This document shows, one piece after another, positions 17,510 through 28,206 of a stretch of DNA of 64,000 nt. A program made the translations under genes and the position numbers. The stretch covers positions 65,155-129,154 of the forward strand of contig JAOQAG010000024.1 of assembly GCA_025963715.1 (NCBI GenBank), given 5' to 3'. The notes beneath the pieces were generated by a model that was given only the letters and a program-made list of their open reading frames with translations, did not search any database and was not told the DNA's origin. Source of the DNA: Bacteroidota bacterium (lineage in GTDB: Bacteria; Bacteroidota; Bacteroidia; 2-12-FULL-35-15). Position 1 is the first letter of the stretch, and the number at the start of each line of letters is the position of its first letter.

Positions 17510-18406
17510 TTATACTTTTTCAAATGTAAACGACAACATCAATTCGTTTCTGAACTGGAATTTATACGGTGGATAAGGCGCATAGCGGATCCGGCTATCC
17601 ACAATAAAATCCAGGTACTTAACTATTTTTACGATCACACGATTGCGAAAATCCACTGTGCATTTTTGCCGGTTGATCGCATTTGCAAAAAAGCGGGAAT
17701 TATTTTCCCAACGGATCCGCTTACCAATACTTTTTCGGATATAGGTTTGAATACCCAAACCATATTCGGAACTGATCAGTGTGTTTTTATAAATGATGCC
17801 GCTGGCTTTATCCGGCACTTCATTATCCAGCAGCGGCATGGTAGATGTATGCAACGTTACAAATGTGAGATCGATCCTGTTCGTTTTCCAAAAGTGAATG
17901 GTAGCACCATACCCGATATCAATATTCATTGGACTACCAAAACCGCTGATCCAGTGTTTAGCATAAAGCCCACTATCATTGTAAATATTTTCATACGCAG
18001 ATAAAAACTGGGAGCTAAAATAAAAACTGAATACATTTTCAAATCGTTTACCGGTCTTTTTTACTACATCGGCTGCAAAATCAAAGTAGTCAGTATTTTT
18101 AACCCAGGTACTATCTATAAATTTTAAATACCCCAATTCGCCGTTGAACCGCAGATGTGTTTCCCAATTGTTTCCTGTGCTATCATAATTAACATTCGAC
18201 CTTAACAAAAACGAATAGCTATTATTCCCGTTGTATTTCCAATTTTTATATTGCACATAGGAAGCAGAAAAATTATTGGTGTACGTGATTGTTGGCGGAA
18301 GATGGAAATGTTTTACTGTTTTTAAAGAATCAGGTTGCTCTTTCGCGTATGTTTTAAAATCAGCCAATAGCAATGCAAGAAACACTAAAAGAAGTTTTCT
18401 TTTCAT
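17510..18406 (-). CDS. DUF3078-type outer-membrane protein
   Basis: 298 residues with a signal peptide (1-21, MKRKLLLVFLALLLADFKTY). The mature protein has alternating aromatic/polar strands typical of an outer-membrane beta barrel (NFSASYVQYKNWKYNGNNSY, WETHLRFNGELGYLKF, FSFYFSSQF) and ends in LMLSFTFEKV, an aromatic-flanked final strand. The order of motifs resembles Bacteroidota DUF3078 proteins. Function unknown. Its stop codon is immediately followed by the palindrome at 17363-17501. Confidence 0.7.
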   Translation of the reverse strand: MKRKLLLVFLALLLADFKTYAKEQPDSLKTVKHFHLPPTITYTNNFSASYVQYKNWKYNGNNSYSFLLRSNVNYDSTGNNWETHLRFNGELGYLKFIDSTWVKNTDYFDFAADVVKKTGKRFENVFSFYFSSQFLSAYENIYNDSGLYAKHWISGFGSPMNIDIGYGATIHFWKTNRIDLTFVTLHTSTMPLLDNEVPDKASGIIYKNTLISSEYGLGIQTYIRKSIGKRIRWENNSRFFANAINRQKCTVDFRNRVIVKIVKYLDFIVDSRIRYAPYPPYKFQFRNELMLSFTFEKV

Positions 18407-18439
18407 TAAAAATGATAAATAAAGAATGTGTGAACCGGG

Positions 18440-19060
18440 TTATTTATTGCCGGAAAGTTTAAACGTAGGAAGAGATTCCTTACTTATTTTCCATGTGTTC
18501 AGATAATCAAGATCAACATAAACAATTGCGATATTACAATTATCGTAATGTTTTCTTATTGAATTATTCCAACCAGGAATATGATTTTTGTTAACCTTAT
18601 GAAAATATTTAGCAAAATCAATAAAAATTAAATAATCATATGGTTTGTCTTTTAAATGAGCTAAAACCTTATTATGATCATCAAGTAAATTGATTAAATT
18701 ATTATAGTCAATTGGTTTATGTTTAGACAAATTTGTGTTTTCAACATCGCAAACCTTTCGTAGAACTGTATCTACAGAAGCATTACAAGCGATAGAATCA
18801 CTTTTATAAGGAACAAATTCTGATCTTTTATTAAAGATAACAATCTCAGGAGATCCCATGAATATATGATTTAATAAGAAATAACTCGTTGAATCCTTTG
18901 TGAATGCAACAAGCGACGAGTCCACATCTATGCTTTTTGCATATTTATTAATTGAATAATAAGTTTCGATCTTAGGGTTTTTGATCCCGAATACTGTTTT
19001 GTAAAAAAGATTACATGATGATAATGCTGTGATTAATAGTAATAAAAAAAAATGTTTCAT
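18440..19060 (-). CDS. Putative lipoprotein of unknown function
   Basis: 206 residues. Lipoprotein signal with lipobox ALSSC (lipidated Cys at 16), so likely a membrane-anchored periplasmic or surface protein. The mature part is Lys/Asn-rich and has no known motif; the PYDYLIFIDFAKYFHKVNKN and IAIVYVDLDYLNTWK stretches suggest an alpha/beta fold resembling TlpA-like proteins, but there is no active-site Cys pair. It belongs to the AT-rich accessory segment and is preceded by a clear terminator. Confidence 0.65.
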   Translation of the reverse strand: MKHFFLLLLITALSSCNLFYKTVFGIKNPKIETYYSINKYAKSIDVDSSLVAFTKDSTSYFLLNHIFMGSPEIVIFNKRSEFVPYKSDSIACNASVDTVLRKVCDVENTNLSKHKPIDYNNLINLLDDHNKVLAHLKDKPYDYLIFIDFAKYFHKVNKNHIPGWNNSIRKHYDNCNIAIVYVDLDYLNTWKISKESLPTFKLSGNK

Positions 19061-19080
19061 AAAATTTATATTAGTTTATT

Positions 19081-19123
19081 AAAAAACTAGCTCAAGCTCC
19101 AATAGCAGTCTGAGCTAGTTTTA
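19081..19123 (-). terminator. Intrinsic terminator of the secreted-protein gene
   Basis: On the minus strand AAAACTAGCTCA pairs with TGAGCTAGTTTTTT across a 16-base loop, ending in a T-tract, just after the stop at 19134. Confidence 0.8.
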
Positions 19124-19133
19124 TAGATTACAA

Positions 19134-19529
19134 TTATTTCAAAGAAATATTAATTTGGTACCCTCCTCTGATTTTAACAAGTTCATAAGTACCTGCTTCA
19201 ATTGTTATTCTGTTTTTTGAACCTAATGCTTTTTGCACATCTGCAGAAAAAGTAAACGCTTCTTCAAAAGTTATTGTATTTCCTTTGAAATATTGTTCTT
19301 TACCTACAATTAGGTCTTTCAGCATAACAATTTGCAATGTATTTGTTGCATCATTAATTTGTATTGTACTTAACTTCCAATCCACATCGACACCAGCTTT
19401 ACAAATACCAAAGTTGGTACATCCCAAGCTTTTTCTGCCAATTTCAAAATGGACGGAAACGACCGGTCCTGCAAACGAAGCAACCGTTGTTGCCACTACT
19501 AATGCTACTGCAATAATTATTTTTTTCAT
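19134..19529 (-). CDS. Small secreted protein of unknown function
   Basis: 131 residues with a signal peptide (1-20, cleavage after SFAG). The mature part (HFEIGRKSLGCTNFGICKAG) has two Cys in a CTNFGIC motif and no known family signature; the pattern continues with alternating strands to a terminal YQINISLK. Followed by its own terminator and preceded by a long leader region that contains a candidate structured RNA. On the minus strand this leader holds two very short ORFs (11 and 15 codons), so a leader-mediated control of this gene is possible. Confidence 0.6.
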   Translation of the reverse strand: MKKIIIAVALVVATTVASFAGPVVSVHFEIGRKSLGCTNFGICKAGVDVDWKLSTIQINDATNTLQIVMLKDLIVGKEQYFKGNTITFEEAFTFSADVQKALGSKNRITIEAGTYELVKIRGGYQINISLK

Positions 19530-19593
19530 ACTTTAATAAAAGGTTAATAGTTGTTAATTTTTGATTTATACTCAATTATTTAATAACTTCAAC

Positions 19594-19746
19594 CCTTGAA
19601 ACGAGACCGCTCAAGGTTTTTTTTCAACGGCTCTTCTAAAGAGTGGTTGATAGTTCATAGTTTAATTACTGTTTATTATTACCTCCTTTCTAATTAAGTA
19701 AGTTTCCTAGGCCTACTTTTTTTTGACATGAAGAGCCGTTTTTTAT
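19594..19746 (+). ncRNA. Candidate structured RNA with an anti-Shine-Dalgarno-like loop
   Basis: On the plus strand CCTTGA/TCAAGG is followed by eight T (19594-19624). Then AACGGCTCTTC (19626-19636) pairs perfectly with GAAGAGCCGTT (19730-19740), followed by TTTTATTT. The about 93-base loop contains ACCTCCTTTCT (19681-19691), which matches the 3' tail of Bacteroidota 16S rRNA. Two hairpin-plus-T-tract units in a row suggest transcription on this strand. The opposite reading is that the minus strand carries an AAAGGAGG site and two mini-ORFs in the leader of the gene at 19529; TATATTTG on the minus strand at 19795-19802 would fit that. Both readings are inference. Confidence 0.35.
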
Positions 19747-20156
19747 TTCGACTCATTCCGTTGCTCAAATAAATTTTTATTTTTTTTAAGCGGGCAAATA
19801 TAAACCCTTATATTTTTTATATCCTAATTTTTTTGAAACACAAAAACGCGAATTATTAGGTTTCGGAAGGCTTTTCGGGAATCACGCCTGATTTTATTTC
19901 TGTAACAGCCTGTTACTAAGACGATAAAAAATTATGCAGAAAAATCACAAATTAAAAAGAGGAAACAAAATCAATACACTTTTAAAAGTGAATATGTGAT
20001 TTTTATAAAATTTAAAAACAATTTCAAATCAAATTAATGTTTGTTTATTTTTTCAGTCAATTTTTTGAATACATTTTAAAGAATAAAACACACTGAAATT
20101 TTTCCTGCCGGTAATTTTATTATTTTTAGATCCAACATCACAACACCATCATCCGC
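19747..20156. other. AT-rich intergenic DNA without a gene
   Basis: No ORF of credible composition is seen. It holds the minus-strand TATATTTG at 19795-19802 (candidate -7 element for the leader region of the secreted-protein gene) and otherwise AT-rich runs. Something upstream of the VF530-like gene may serve as its promoter, but no clean TAnnTTTG match was found there. Confidence 0.4.
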
Positions 20157-20378
20157 ATGAGCGAACAAGCCAACAATCCTTTACACGGTAAAACTTTACA
20201 AATGATTTTGGAAGAATTATTGGAAACCTATCGTTGGGAAGGCCTGGCAGAACAGATCCGCATCAATTGTTTTATGGATAACCCAAGTATAAAATCGAGC
20301 TTGACGTTTTTACGTAAAACGCCCTGGGCAAGGACTAAAGTAGAGGAATTGTATGTGCGCCTGAAAAGCGGCGCCTGA
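20157..20378 (+). CDS. VF530 family (DUF2132) DNA-binding protein
   Basis: 73 residues, the length of the family. Nearly every conserved block is present: [38 protein letters not shown] and [22 protein letters not shown]530-type proteins are small helical proteins described as DNA-binding; the target is unknown. It is monocistronic and convergent with the MtfA-like gene, 22 bases away. Confidence 0.9.
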
Positions 20379-20400
20379 TTTTTTTTGAAATGATAAACGG

Positions 20401-21813
20401 TTATTCTTTTTCCGTTATATAATAATAGCCTTCCAGGTTTTTTATCCCAAGCAATCCGCGCCTGTATATAAATGCCACTTTCAGCTGCCCGGTTTTAGGC
20501 GGCGTTTTCAGCAAAAGTAATTTACTGTTGTACCAATCGGCATCCTCTACTTCCAACTGATAGCCTACAAAAGAATGAGAAGAGTGAGTGCTGTATTTTC
20601 CATAACTGGTTATCCAGCTTTCGGAATAACTAATGATCCGGAACTCTTCTGTTTGTGGCGCTGTAACCGGAATAAAAAAATTGATCCACAACAAAAGTGT
20701 TGTGATAGTAACCCCAAAACCAACGTAAGAATACAGCAGAAAAAAAGCGCCGCTAAAAATATTCCGTTCTTCAAAATACCGTTTTTGCAACAGCCCTATT
20801 GTTCCTATCACCAGCACCGCTGCAAAGTAAAACCAATAGGGCAAAATAAGCTGGTGCATTAAAAACAATATGGTAACTATTCCACCTAAAACGCCAAACA
20901 ATAAAAGCGACAGCGACCAGTGCCAGCTGCTGTATTTATAGCTGGGTTTTACTTCGGCAGCCGTTGGAATGTTAAAACTTTTGAGTTCAAAATAACCGGG
21001 CGCTACTGTATAATCATTGTTCACGTTGGTGGGATCCTGGTTGAGTAAAAACACAATGTAATTGTACAGCTCGGGCAATTGCGTGGAAAATTGGTTGGGA
21101 TTTTCAAAAAATGCTTCGGCACACACCGCAAAAAATTCGGCCATGTTGGTTTTTCCGTATGGGCGCAAAAATTCTTCGGCTTTGCTTCTCAGTTTTTCCA
21201 GTTCGCCTTCCGCCATTGATTCCCAGATATCAATACGGTTTGCAAAATAAACATCAAAACCTGCTCCTACCGAAAGCGATAATTTTAAAGCATGCGTCAT
21301 TTCATGCAAACCCAGGTTTACTTTATCGGTAGCATTTTCATTGCCTTCCCTGAAAGCTTTCCAGGATAAATACATGCGGCCCTGGCTGGTTGCTCCCTTG
21401 TACTCGGTTTTTGCTCCGCCAAGTGTAAAAATATCAGGAAAAATAACAATGGTTTCGAGGTTGGAAAGATTGTATTTAGTAAGTCCGAAGGTAAGCTGAA
21501 CGGCTGATGCGGAAATAAGCACTTTCATTTCTTCGGTTACCATCAATCCATGCATTCCCACAAACTCTTTGTTGTTCATGAAAATAAACAGGCGGTTAAC
21601 AAATCGCCCTTTTCCTTCTTCAGATAAACGCATGTAATAAGGAATGTTTTTTACATAGCTGTTTACAGTTTCAAGATCCTGCACACGGATAAATAATTTT
21701 TGAAGCCCGGTTACATGCAGCAGCAGGTACCAGCCATCCTTCATGGCGCTATACAACAAGTAGCATAACATCAGCAACAAAACCGTTACGACAATGCCTA
21801 TGAAAATTCCCAT
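20401..21813 (-). CDS. MtfA/M90-like zinc peptidase with membrane segments
   Basis: 470 residues from the ATG at 21813 (MGIFIGIVVTVLLLMLCYLL); the open frame reaches 21948, but the extra N-terminus is not hydrophobic in the way expected and this ATG begins a clean first membrane helix. The central part contains NLGLHEMTHALKLS, whose HEMTH is an HExxH zinc site, followed by a downstream AEFFAVCAEAFFENP that fits the M90 (MtfA, DUF980) pattern. Unlike short MtfA proteins it has an N-terminal anchor and three or four C-terminal membrane helices. A membrane-bound peptidase facing the cytoplasm is the best guess; substrate unknown. Confidence 0.75.
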   Translation of the reverse strand: MGIFIGIVVTVLLLMLCYLLYSAMKDGWYLLLHVTGLQKLFIRVQDLETVNSYVKNIPYYMRLSEEGKGRFVNRLFIFMNNKEFVGMHGLMVTEEMKVLISASAVQLTFGLTKYNLSNLETIVIFPDIFTLGGAKTEYKGATSQGRMYLSWKAFREGNENATDKVNLGLHEMTHALKLSLSVGAGFDVYFANRIDIWESMAEGELEKLRSKAEEFLRPYGKTNMAEFFAVCAEAFFENPNQFSTQLPELYNYIVFLLNQDPTNVNNDYTVAPGYFELKSFNIPTAAEVKPSYKYSSWHWSLSLLLFGVLGGIVTILFLMHQLILPYWFYFAAVLVIGTIGLLQKRYFEERNIFSGAFFLLYSYVGFGVTITTLLLWINFFIPVTAPQTEEFRIISYSESWITSYGKYSTHSSHSFVGYQLEVEDADWYNSKLLLLKTPPKTGQLKVAFIYRRGLLGIKNLEGYYYITEKE

Positions 21814-22018
21814 GAAGTTCCTGTTTATTAAATCCACGTAAATGTATGAATTTATGGCAATTTTGTACGGAGGCCGGAATAAACATTGTTTTTTTCTGAA
21901 AATGAGATTTAAAAACACGGAATTTTGTAACAGACACGTCATACACATCCGTTTTTACAACCATGATGAGGCTTACCGGGAATAGCAAAAAATTATTAGC
22001 GGAATAGCAAAACACTGC

Positions 22019-22825
22019 TTAAACAGCGATCCAGTTTTTTTCTCCGTTGCCGGGCATGTGTATAAAATTATTCCTTGCAGGCATGTCCAGGAATGGATAT
22101 GTTATTTTGGATAAGTACAATCCCTGCGGATGTGCAGGAATGATCGTTGGTGGATGTTCTCCCGTGCGCAAACAATGCTCCAGTTGTTCCACTGTAAATT
22201 CACCCCTGCCGATCTCCAGTAATTTACCGGTTAAAATACGGATCATGGCTTTTAAAAAACGGTTGGCCGAGATCTTGAACCTTAACCTGTCGCCGTTTGC
22301 ATCCATATACAAAGTAGCCGAACTTACCAGGCAAATGGTGGAATTGTGTTTTTCCGGCGAACGGCAAAAACCGTGGTAATTGGTATACTTCGGGAATAAT
22401 GCCACTGCGGCTTTCATCTGCTGCAGATCCAGGTCTTTCAGCAAATAAAACGCGCTCATGGTGCTTAAAAAAGGATCTTTATACGTATGGATAAAATAAT
22501 CATAAGTGCGTTGCGTAGCACCAAACCGCGCATGCTGGTTATCCTGTACCGGGATGATGTCGAAAATGGCAATGCTATCCGGCAGCACTTTATTAAGCCG
22601 GAACAGCAGGTCAAAATCCCAGGTTTCCTCTACATCAATGTGAAAGAAATACTGGCTGGCATTTACCTGCGCATCCGTACGGCCGCAACCCACCACCGTA
22701 ACCGGCGTTTTTAAGATCCTGGCAAGGGCATTTTCCAATACCTCCTGCACGCTTACCACACCTGCCTGCCGCTGCCAACCACGGTACTGGTAACCATGGT
22801 AACCGATATGAAAGAAATACCTCAC
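22019..22825 (-). CDS. truA: tRNA pseudouridine(38-40) synthase TruA
   Basis: Converts uridines 38-40 of the tRNA anticodon arm to pseudouridine. 268 residues. The catalytic block is VVGCGRTDAQVNASQYFFH, with the active-site Asp at 51 (family consensus GRTDxGVHA; here Q and N replace two residues of the consensus). Also seen: FNRLNK-like RLNKVLPDSIAI, RFSATQRTYDYFI-like RFGATQRTYDYFIH, and MIRILTGKLLEIGRGE near the C-terminus. Likely functional. The -7-like TACATTTG at 22859-22852 on the minus strand may drive it. Confidence 0.92.
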   Translation of the reverse strand: MRYFFHIGYHGYQYRGWQRQAGVVSVQEVLENALARILKTPVTVVGCGRTDAQVNASQYFFHIDVEETWDFDLLFRLNKVLPDSIAIFDIIPVQDNQHARFGATQRTYDYFIHTYKDPFLSTMSAFYLLKDLDLQQMKAAVALFPKYTNYHGFCRSPEKHNSTICLVSSATLYMDANGDRLRFKISANRFLKAMIRILTGKLLEIGRGEFTVEQLEHCLRTGEHPPTIIPAHPQGLYLSKITYPFLDMPARNNFIHMPGNGEKNWIAV

Positions 22826-22851
22826 GCTTTTTCTGCCGTTTTTTGTACCCG

Positions 22852-22859
22852 CAAATGTA
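22852..22859 (-). promoter_or_regulatory. Candidate -7 element of truA
   Basis: TACATTTG on the minus strand, 26 bases before the truA ATG; matches TAnnTTTG. The -33 half is not clear. Confidence 0.35.
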
Positions 22860-22877
22860 GGGATTTATAGCGTAAAT

Positions 22878-22909
22878 TTTGGCGTTTCGTGAATAGTTGA
22901 GTATCTTTG
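22878..22909 (+). promoter_or_regulatory. Promoter of the SAM-riboswitch/metH transcript
   Basis: TTTG (22878-22881) and TATCTTTG (22902-22909) are separated by 20 bases, a full match to the Bacteroidota -33/-7 pattern. It lies about 100 bases before the SAM riboswitch and points towards it. The clearest promoter in the window. Confidence 0.75.
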
Positions 22910-23012: not shown

Positions 23013-23162
23013 AACTTATCAAGAAAGGTGGAGGGACGTGCCCTGCGAAACCTTAGCAACCCTATATTAGTTTGAAATGAAAGAGATAAAAAGGAAGATC
23101 TCAAACTAAAAAAGAAGGTGCTAAATCCTGTTCTTACATAACGTAAGAAACAGATAAGTCAG
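23013..23162 (+). promoter_or_regulatory. SAM-I (S-box) riboswitch
   Basis: Contains the conserved S-box core: CTTATCAAGAAAGGTGGAGG, then GGGACGTGCCCTGCGAAACC, TTAGCAACC, the GAAGGTGCTAAATCCTG block and a closing GATAAG that pairs with CTTATC. A paired arm (TTAGTTTGAAA with CTCAAACTAA) is also seen. Binds SAM; when SAM is high the downstream terminator forms. It controls the methyltransferase gene and metH, matching the known role in methionine metabolism. Confidence 0.96.
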
Positions 23163-24045: not shown

Positions 24046-27000
24046 ATGAATACAACGAAGGAAGCCGGAACACTCATTCCATCCGGCAAAGCAGAGCAGC
24101 AGGCCGATATCCGCAAAGAATTGGAAAAACGCGTGTTGGTGATCGACGGTGCCATGGGAACGATGATCCAGCAATACAAGCTGGAAGAAAAAGATTTCAG
24201 AAGCAAGCGCTTTGCCGATTGGCACAAGGATTTGAAGGGGAATAATGATTTGCTTTCCATCACACAACCGCAGATCATCAAAGCCATTCATAAAGAATAT
24301 TTGAAAGCAGGCGCGGATATTATTGAAACAAATACCTTCAGCGGAACTACCATTGCCATGGCGGATTACGACATGCAGGAGCTGGCATATGAACTGAATT
24401 ACGAATCGGCAAAAATTGCAAAAGAAGCCATTGCGGAATATAATTTACAAAGCGGAAATCAACAGCCGAAATTTGTTGCAGGCGCCATCGGGCCCACCAA
24501 TCGTACACTTTCCTTATCTCCGAATGTGAACGACCCCGGGTTCCGTGCTATTACCTTTGATGAGCTGGTAATTGCGTATACCGAACAGGTAAAAGGATTG
24601 ATTGACGGCGGCGCAGACTTGCTGCTGATCGAAACAATTTTTGATACGCTGAATGCAAAAGCCGCATTGTTTGCGATCCAGAATTATTGCGAAAAAATAA
24701 ATCGTAAAATGCCGGTGATGGTTTCCGGAACCATCACGGATGCCAGCGGACGGACACTATCCGGCCAAACCACCGAAGCATTTTTAAATTCGGTTTCACA
24801 CGTTGATCTGTTAAGCGTTGGTTTAAATTGTGCGCTTGGCGCGAAGGATATGCGCCCGTATTTGGAAGAGCTTTCCAACAAATCGCCTTTCTACGTAAGT
24901 GCCTATCCCAATGCCGGTTTGCCTAACCAGTTTGGCGAATACGACGAGGATGCACACACCATGGGCCACCAGATCGAAGATTTTTTACAAGCGGGATTTA
25001 TCAATATCGTTGGCGGATGCTGTGGCACGACACCGGCACACATCCAACGCATTGCCGAACTGGCAAAGGTAGCGCAGCCGCGTAAAAAACCGGTAGCCGA
25101 TACGCTGATGCATTTAAGCGGTTTGGAACCATTGACACTGCGTCCTGAAAGTAATTTTTTAAATGTGGGTGAACGTACCAACGTGACCGGCTCAAAAAAA
25201 TTCTTACGATTAATTAAAGAAGGGAATTACGAAGAAGCGCTGGCAATTGCCAAAGATCAGGTAGATGGCGGAGCACAGGTGATCGATGTGAACATGGATG
25301 AAGGGATGCTGGACGGCGAAGCGGCAATGACTAAATTTTTAAACCTGATCGCTTCCGAACCGGACATCAGCAAAGTGCCGATCATGATCGATTCCTCGAA
25401 ATGGACCGTGATTGAAGCGGGATTAAAATGTGTGCAGGGAAAAGCCATCGTGAATTCGATCTCGTTAAAAGAAGGCGAAGAAAAATTTATAGAGCAGGCG
25501 CATAAAGTAAAACAATACGGCGCTGCTGTAATTGTAATGGCTTTTGATGAAGTAGGACAAGCCGATACACTGGAACGCAGAAAAGAAATTTGTAAACGCG
25601 CTTACGATATTTTAGTGGACAAAGTACATTTTCCGGCACAGGATATTATTTTCGATCCCAATATTTTTCCGGTTGCAACGGGCATGGAAGAACACCGTTT
25701 GAATGCGCTCGATTTTTTTAATTCCACCAAATGGATCAAGGAAAATTTGCCACATGCAAAAGTAAGCGGCGGTGTAAGTAACGTTTCGTTTTCGTTTCGT
25801 GGAAACGATCACGTCCGTGAAGCCATCCACGGTGCATTTTTATATCATGCCGTAAAAGCCGGTATGGACATGGGAATTGTAAACCCGGCGCAATTGCAGG
25901 TGTATGATGATATTGATAAAAAATTGCTGGAATTAGTAGAAGATGTATTGTTGAACAGAAGGGATGATGCTACGGAAAGACTGGTGGAACACGCAGAATC
26001 GCTGAAAGGCATTACCAAAGAAAAAAAAGAAAAAGATGAAGAATGGCGCAGAGGCACAGTGGAAGAGCGACTGAGTCATGCACTGGTAAAAGGATTGGTG
26101 GAATACATTGATGTGGATACGGAAGAAGCGCGCTTAAAATTAGGCCGTCCGCTGCACGTGATCGAAGGGCCGCTGATGGATGGAATGAATGTGGTGGGTG
26201 ATCTGTTTGGAAGTGGAAAAATGTTTTTACCGCAGGTGGTGAAAAGCGCTCGCGTGATGAAAAAAGCAGTGGCATATTTGGAGCCGTATCTGCAAGCCGA
26301 AAAAGAGGCGAATAAGCTGGCGGGTATTGTGGGTAACGGAAGACAAAATGCAGGAAAAATATTAATGGCCACCGTAAAAGGCGATGTGCATGATATTGGA
26401 AAAAATATTGTGGGCGTTGTATTGGCCTGTAATAATTACGAGATCATCGATTTGGGTGTAATGGTTTCCTGTGATAAAATTTTAGAGGAAGCAAAAAAAC
26501 ACGATGTGGATATTATCGGATTAAGCGGATTGATCACACCATCGCTGGATGAAATGGTGCACGTAGCAAAGGAAATGGAGCGGCTGCAATTTAAAACGCC
26601 CTTGCTGATCGGTGGCGCCACCACTTCAAAAGTACATACGGCAGTAAAAATTGCACAAAATTATTCGGGGCCGGTGGTGCACGTGAACGATGCCAGTAAG
26701 TCCGTACCGGTTGCCAGCAGCCTTATTTCGGATGAGTTAAGAGATGCGTTCATGACAGAAGTATCAAAAGATTACGACCGCGTACGCGAACAAAATAAAA
26801 ATGCGCAATCGCAAAATAAATACATTTCCATCGCGGAAGCGCGCGCCAATAAATTTGCGATCGACTGGAACGCCACAAAGATAAGGAAACCAGCGTTTAC
26901 CGGAAATAAAGTAGTTGATAATTACCCGATTGCAGAATTAGTGGAATACATTGACTGGACACCGTTTTTTATTTCCTGGGAAATGAAAGGCTCGTATCCG

Positions 27001-28206
27001 AAAATTTTAAAAGATCCTGTTCGCGGTGAAGAAGCACGTAAATTATTTGCGGATGCACAAAAAATGCTAAAGCAGATCATTGATGAAAAATGGCTGACAG
27101 CACGCGCCGTGATTGGAATTTATCCGGCTAACGCTGTGGAAGACGACATTGAAGTATATGAAGATGAAAACAGGACAAAAATAAAAACGGTATTTCATAC
27201 GCTTCGGCAGCAAACAAAAAAACCGGCGGGGCAGTATAATGTAGCCTTGTCGGATTTTGTGAAACCCCTCTCTAACTCTCCCCACAGGGGAGAGGACTAT
27301 AAAAACGCTACAAATAAAATTGATTGGCATTTGAATATTGATAATGCAAAAAAACACCGCTCTAATCCAACAGAAACTGAAAAAATAATCTGGAATTTTT
27401 TAAGGGCAAAACAAACCGGCTATAAATTTAGACGGCAGCATCTCATTGATAAATATATAGTTGATTTTGTTTGCCTTGAAAAGATGATCGTTGTTGAAAT
27501 TGATGAAAAATATCATGATCAAATAAAAGAACAAGATGAATTAAGAACTTCTGTTTTACAATCATTAGGATACTATGTTATCAGGTTTACGAATGAGGAA
27601 GTAGTAGCAAACACAGATGCTGTTATAACAACTATTAAGGCTGCGTGCGATGCACAGACAGCTCTCTCCCCTGTGGGGAGAGCCGGAGAGGGGTGTGACT
27701 ATATCGGCGCCTTCGCCCTCACCACCGGCATTGGCATCGATGAGCACGTAGCTCGTTTTGAAAAAGATCACGATGATTATTCTGCCATTATGCTAAAAGC
27801 GCTTGCCGACAGGCTGGCGGAGGCTTTCGCCGAATTGATGCACAAGCGTGTCCGGAAAGAATTCTGGGGATATGCAACCGATGAAGATTTAAAAAATGAG
27901 GAGCTGATCAAGGAAGAATATGCAGGGATCAGGCCTGCACCGGGTTATCCGGCGCAACCCGATCATACCGAAAAGCCAGCACTTTTTAAATTGCTGGATG
28001 CTGAAAAAAATACAGGAATTAAATTAACGGAAAGCATGGCGATGTTCCCCACGGCGGCTGTAAGCGGCTTGTACTTTGCGCATCCGCAATCCCATTATTT
28101 CGGGATCGGTAAAATTCAAAAAGACCAGGTGGAGGAATATGCCATACGAAAAGGCATGAGCCTTGATAAAGCCGAACGCTGGCTGGGGCCAAATCTTGCT
28201 TATTAA
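24046..28206 (+). CDS. metH: Cobalamin-dependent methionine synthase with an in-frame DUF559 insertion
   Basis: Transfers a methyl group from 5-methyltetrahydrofolate to homocysteine through cobalamin. 1386 residues, about 145 more than a usual MetH. Domains: homocysteine/zinc domain (about 25-340) with Zn ligands C262, C325 and C326; pterin-binding domain (about 370-630, [13 protein letters not shown]); cobalamin cap and B12 domain with the DVHDIG ligand (H782); C-terminal reactivation domain with [12 protein letters not shown] (R1296). Residues about 1073-1217 are foreign: the surface loop between DFVKP and DYIGAF of the reactivation domain has been taken by a DUF559 nuclease-like domain flanked by inverted repeats. 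The frame is open throughout. Controlled by the SAM riboswitch upstream. Whether the enzyme still reactivates is unknown. Confidence 0.95.
27264..27694 (+). mobile_element. DUF559-encoding element with 31-bp inverted repeats inside metH
   Basis: 431 bp bounded by ACCCCTCTCTAACTCTCCCC-type ends: 27264-27294 and the reverse complement of 27664-27694 agree at 28 of 31 positions, each with an inner CTCTCCCCACAGGGGAGAG hairpin. GTGA occurs at 27259-27262 and again at 27695-27698, a possible 4-bp target duplication. The inside codes, in the metH frame, for a DUF559 (Vsr-like endonuclease fold) domain: [46 protein letters not shown] and [14 protein letters not shown]. No in-frame ATG precedes the domain, so it is made only as part of MetH unless another start is used. 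Element plus GTGA is 435 bp, exactly 145 codons. Confidence 0.8.

Follow-up and report, generated by a model that had tools for sequence, protein, structure and literature searches.

The element at 19594-19746 of the window, the whole 64,000 nt stretch of DNA analysed here, appears to belong to a structured minus-strand leader of about 255 nt, in which an extended Shine-Dalgarno (SD) sequence, followed by no start codon, lies about 150 nt upstream of the start of the first gene of an operon. That this start-less SD docks the 30S subunit, probably protecting or gating the operon mRNA, is judged from the comparative evidence to be an evenly balanced proposition; that the leader is transcribed, that 30S binds it in the cell and what this binding brings about are all inferred. 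The structured leader itself is well supported as a minus-strand RNA by the pattern of base pairing among related genomes.

Location of the element and the operon behind it

Past the low end of the element the genes run on the minus strand. The closest of them starts at 19529, and the element therefore lies in its upstream region. This gene encodes a 131 aa protein (19134-19529, minus strand) with a signal peptide and a CxxFGIC motif, belonging to no known family. The second gene of the conserved cassette encodes a lipoprotein (18440-19060, minus strand) and the third a DUF3078 protein (17510-18406, minus strand; Pfam PF11276, E=1.9e-7), which is possibly an outer-membrane beta-barrel. A PDB sequence search with the 131 aa protein returned nothing significant, and its structure model (mean pLDDT 75.6) gave no hit at E<0.001 with Foldseek and none at a Z of 5 or more with VIA-align, which does not show that the fold is new.

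Strand and structure of the leader

Read on the plus strand, the region contains what the initial annotation described: a perfect 11 bp stem, AACGGCTCTTC (19626-19636) with GAAGAGCCGTT (19730-19740), followed by a T-run; a second terminator-like hairpin, CCTTGAAACGAGACCGCTCAAGG (19594-19616), followed by T8; and, inside the loop of the stem, ACCTCCTTTCT (19681-19691), which was equated with the 3' end of the 16S rRNA. Two readings had been suggested: a small RNA showing the anti-SD, which on the plus strand would end at one of these hairpins and compete with ribosomes for mRNAs that keep SD sites, or else a leader on the other strand with a strong SD and two mini-ORFs. The leader and its SD have stood up to comparison with related genomes and the mini-ORFs have not, while the plus-strand RNA, for which the stems and T-runs in the window genome and the identity of ACCTCCTTTCT with the 16S tail might be cited, is now very improbable.

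On the minus strand, a scan for TAnnTTTG identified a Bacteroidota-type -7 promoter box, TATATTTG, at 19795-19802, from which transcription would be expected to start near 19788; from 17749 to 22902 the plus strand has none. The box is common window-wide, with 78 found and 74 expected. What gives it weight as evidence is that its position is conserved: the ATTTG is invariant and in the same place in all ten leaders. A tentative 5'-terminal hairpin, P0 (GCTTAAA/TTTGAGC, 19763-19791, minus strand), has a 5' arm that may overlap the transcription start, and similar pairs, GCTTAA/TTAAGC or GATTAAT/ATTAATC, are found in several relatives with modest z-scores of -0.1 to -2.8. There follow, all on the minus strand, the P1 5' arm (AACGGCTCTTC, 19730-19740), the P2 hairpin (AGTAGGcctaggaaaCTTACT, 19697-19717), the extended SD (AGAAAGGAGGT, 19681-19691), a mostly unpaired AGTAATTAAAC (19660-19670; consensus AGTANTTAAAC) conserved in 10 of 10 leaders, the proximal arm CACTCTTT (19638-19645), the P1 3' arm (GAAGAGCCGTT, 19626-19636), which pairs with the 5' arm over 11 bp, and the P4 hairpin (CCTTGA...TCAAGG, 19594-19616). 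The proximal arm is nearly invariant, being CACTCTTC in the remaining complete leaders, and is predicted to form a weak helix, P3, with the SD.

Conservation of the stem in relatives, which had been proposed as a check, is borne out by a nine-species alignment. Read on the minus strand, P1, P2 and P4 are paired in 99.5% of cells, falling to 28-52% when the partners are slid by 1-3 columns as a control, and there are compensatory changes at three pairs: A-U for G-C in P1 (G019), A-U to U-A in P2 and A-U to C-G in P4 (both in G032, G006 and G011), P2 having in addition an invariant G-U pair. There are 16 G-U cells on the minus strand, which would be A-C on the plus strand, against 1 in the reverse orientation. 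The T-run that follows P4 on the plus strand is 8 T in the window and 3-5 in relatives, and these runs are the A-rich linkers of the minus-strand leader, variable in length. P1 as a terminator would also need a loop of approximately 93 nt, and a terminator scan lists neither hairpin, although it accepts loops of up to 8 only and both fall outside that limit. As far as can be read from the sequence, neither transcription of the CCUCC strand nor a conserved terminator, as would be looked for in an anti-SD decoy, is indicated.

Two further readings of P1 were considered and set aside. Its CTCTTC/GAAGAG repeats could be a DNA operator, but P2 and P4 have compensatory changes and G-U pairs, which speak for an RNA. 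Opening of P1 as a switch is disfavoured in the predicted ensembles, where P1 is preferred by 5-12 kcal/mol, and P1 is therefore probably constitutive.

Distribution of the leader

The leader was found by DNA search in 10 of 36 genomes of an uncultured Bacteroidota genus, including that of the window, in one copy each, and a covariance model built from nine leaders identified the same ten genomes, again with single copies. The named relatives that carry it are Bacteroidota metagenome-assembled genomes. In every case the leader sits 5' of a small secreted-protein gene of the same type, the lipoprotein gene usually being next, and this constant placement ahead of a gene on the opposite strand is also contrary to a plus-strand RNA. 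The secreted proteins are 21-66% identical to that of the window; the leader is better conserved and aligns almost end to end. The leader of G029 has lost the P1 3' arm, the proximal arm and P4 and has kept P2, the SD and AGTAATTAAAC. Single-base insertions and deletions are seen among the leaders in the region of the SD and the short ORFs.

When the covariance search was widened to 395 genomes of the class, the only addition was a weak match in G226 (30 bits), the surroundings of which resemble coding sequence, and it was treated as chance. A first protein scan of genome contigs gave no match, while a contig scan with the pattern CACTCTTYWGAAGAGYCGTTRA recovered the same eight relatives and two matches in Sulfurimonas, both apparently in coding sequence of a different sort. 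In viral contigs, the single pattern match was inside an unrelated phage-like contig and was taken as chance; a protein search and a looser pattern found none.

An extended Shine-Dalgarno without a start codon

Most Bacteroidota genes do not use SD sites, which makes a strong start-less SD surprising. Bacteroidia ribosomes normally hide the anti-SD, which counts against docking, although the phylum retains its sequence, and in published screens rpsU is the main remaining anti-SD partner in Flavobacteriales.

The full-length 16S genes of the genus, among them that of the leader-bearing G019, end in ...GGAACACCTCCTTTCTAG, which confirms the match of ACCTCCTTTCT to the 16S 3' end; a 16S pattern with GGAT matched nothing because the genus has GGAA. 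AAAGGAGG is the core of an extended SD that in all ten leaders forms 9-11 bp with the genus's own 16S tail, with a predicted energy of pairing to ACCUCCUUUCU of -13.3 to -17.5 kcal/mol, and in none of the ten is there an NTG within 22 nt after it. The window's AGAAAGGAGGT site (-17.5 kcal/mol) is the best anti-SD match on either strand of the 64 kb, the runner-up being at -13.3 kcal/mol. Identity among the leaders is 0.81 across the SD, compared to 0.57 and 0.71 in its flanks, and two sites in the SD have A-to-G changes that face U, so preserving the pairing with 16S. The SD of G025, which carries GGAGA, is weakened to -13.3 kcal/mol. The two mini-ORFs of the window are not conserved across the leaders of the genus.

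As counted by one pattern search, there are three copies of GAAAGGAGGT in the 4.9 Mb genome: the one in the leader, one upstream of a DUF3606 gene and one within sequence unrelated to either. The DUF3606 gene (L080, 1501-1684), which encodes 56 aa, has its perfect extended SD (AGAAAGGAGGT) at normal spacing from the ATG. The initial annotation had named rpsU as a likely SD-bearing target; however, 0 of the 28 rpsU genes examined in the genus (loci L051-L079) has an SD. In having no SD on rpsU despite an intact 16S anti-SD, the genus departs from what has been published for many Bacteroidota. The lack of an SD on rpsU and the presence of GAAAGGAGGT only twice elsewhere in the genome both count against a plus-strand anti-SD RNA.

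Within the leader the SD has a second partner, in P3, and its conservation could therefore reflect RNA folding alone. The consensus fold from RNAalifold includes the SD-like strand in P3. In the predicted structures the cover over the SD is weak and comes mainly from the proximal arm, and opening it costs 2-6 kcal/mol. Against this cost stand the 13-17 kcal/mol gained with 16S, so that an anti-SD that is free should prevail. A riboswitch-like or protein-binding RNA, in which the P1-P2-P3 junction binds a ligand and the SD-like strand matters only through its pairing with CACTCTTC, would account for the compensatory pairs around the junction, the conserved unpaired AGTANTTAAAC and the near invariance of the proximal arm. 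It is nevertheless a doubtful explanation, as the SD matches 16S over a greater length and more strongly than it does its partner in P3, the SD persists in G029 although the proximal arm is gone, and homologous operons of other families retain an SD amid different surrounding sequence. In addition, the minus strand has no conserved terminator, no structure is seen to cover the region of the true start, and Rfam, at the gathering score, has no family at the element. On balance, the SD more probably than not acts through pairing with 16S, the internal pairing in P3 being the main rival, and the proposal that a 30S subunit docks there rests on comparative evidence.

Homologous operons in other families

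In a sample of 196 genera of the class, 13 have relatives of the secreted protein by profile search. The hairpin structure of the window type is limited to the ten leaders of one genus. In family f3, homology by profile is clear for both the proteins (E=8.5e-13) and the lipoproteins (1.1e-17), and the leaders have a predicted SD as strong as that of the window's genus directly after the TAnnTTTG box. In five of six f3 leaders the SD is followed by a two-codon ORF, ATG-ACT-TAA, ATG-ACA-TAG or ATG-ACT-TAG, and the variation in the third base and the stop codon suggests that it is the two-codon ORF itself that is kept. In G250 (f22) there is a -13.9 kcal/mol site with no start at normal spacing, and, as a point against docking, families f28 and f61 have the same operon with no strong SD. 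The fetched loci, 152,676 nt in all, contain nine sites at or below -13 kcal/mol; six are within operon leaders, although five of these six are from one family and they are thus not six independent events. The 16S tails were read for the window's genus. The f1 and f3 leaders would have in common a strong docking site that yields no peptide, or a dipeptide only.

The two-codon ORF of f3, together with the strong SD and the two short ORFs in the window genome, might suggest leader-peptide attenuation, in which translation of a short ORF behind the SD alters the folding of P1 and P4. A conserved short ORF behind the SD is, however, seen only as the ATG-ACN-stop of f3: in the window's genus none of the ten leaders has a start codon in the 22 nt following the SD, the short ORFs are not conserved and the leaders differ there by single-base indels. 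Attenuation is therefore a poor candidate.

Different conserved sequences are present upstream of some of these operons. The f28 leaders (L105-L112) have another conserved hairpin, of the CCGACACGTTGTCGG type, several with ATG-TAA, and in f3 (L116-L119) there are TTTTGCGT/ACGCAAAA inverted repeats upstream of the promoter box, which are possibly an operator.

Proposed mechanism and comparison with known systems

It is proposed that the folded 5' leader heads the mRNA of the secreted-protein and lipoprotein operon, with P1 closing a domain that contains P2 and the extended SD, and with the proximal CACTCTTC arm covering the SD weakly. A 30S subunit, or ribosome, would park on the SD and, there being no start codon after it, would make no protein. 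The parked 30S might shield the leader from ribonuclease or might hold ribosomes near the A/U-rich true start, and expression of the operon would thereby be tied to 30S subunits with a free anti-SD. Docking without a start codon is made plausible by F. johnsoniae, whose ribosomes bind the extended SD of rpsU in complexes of unusual stability that depend only in part on tRNA (PMC9976891).

The same anatomy would serve for a site that traps inactive or anti-SD-exposed 30S and so lowers expression of the operon, the direction of the effect being inferred in either case. Since the precedents for start-less SDs are mostly protective, such a trap is considered improbable. In the cry3A STAB-SD of Bacillus thuringiensis, a docked 30S at a start-less SD protects the mRNA (PMC4113751), and in the EHEC LEE4 esp mRNA and axe-txe, SDs that are start-less or have a mini-ORF are likewise described as protective (PMC8708949).

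Like cry3A, where the SD is near -129, the leader has a non-translating SD far upstream, here by about 150 nt, and 30S docking is proposed for both; indeed all ten leaders have a 5' UTR SD complementary to the 16S tail with no start codon. Unlike cry3A, the SD of the window has a conserved leader of several helices around it and comes from a phylum in which SDs are seldom used, and its genus has no RNase J over the cut-off: with TIGR00649 at the family cut-off, RNase J was found in 0 of 36 genomes of the genus and in 9 of 14 controls. The strict STAB-SD mechanism would therefore not apply, so that another nuclease or a standby role would be needed, and the leader is not filed as a member of the STAB-SD class.

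The similarity to the extended SD of rpsU lies in 9-13 bp with the 16S tail, at an energy below -13 kcal/mol, which is the mark of rpsU in the phylum, and in being exceptional in the genome (PMC9976891). That SD starts translation, whereas the SD of the window has no start codon and its gene is non-ribosomal. Autoregulation of the rpsU type is not indicated, the gene not being rpsU and rpsU of the genus having no SD in 28 of 28 cases. The EHEC LEE4 esp and axe-txe leaders (PMC8708949) share a strong leader SD, to which the f3 homologues add a two-codon ORF, and a likely cis action on mRNA stability or translation; the window version differs from them in having no ORF and in being in another phylum with other genes.

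Docking of this kind, if true, would give the anti-SD a further partner and a further use, in a genus whose rpsU has no SD, and makes testable the regulation of genes outside the ribosome by anti-SD-exposed ribosomes. A further suggestion, and a rather unlikely one, is that the start-less or two-codon SD senses 30S with an exposed anti-SD, for example 30S lacking bS21, and so couples ribosome composition to an envelope operon.

Other features of the window

The only Rfam match in the window is a SAM riboswitch (RF00162, 79.5 bits) at 23013-23160 on the plus strand, ahead of a methyltransferase ORF and metH. The metH ORF (B12-dependent methionine synthase, 24046-28206, plus strand) has an in-frame DUF559 insert at 27268-27693 (Pfam 7e-32), which splits the activation domain and is flanked by the text SPHRGE and SPVGRAGEG. 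Similar text, GRAGDG, is found at the N-terminus of a methyltransferase in L003 and L010.
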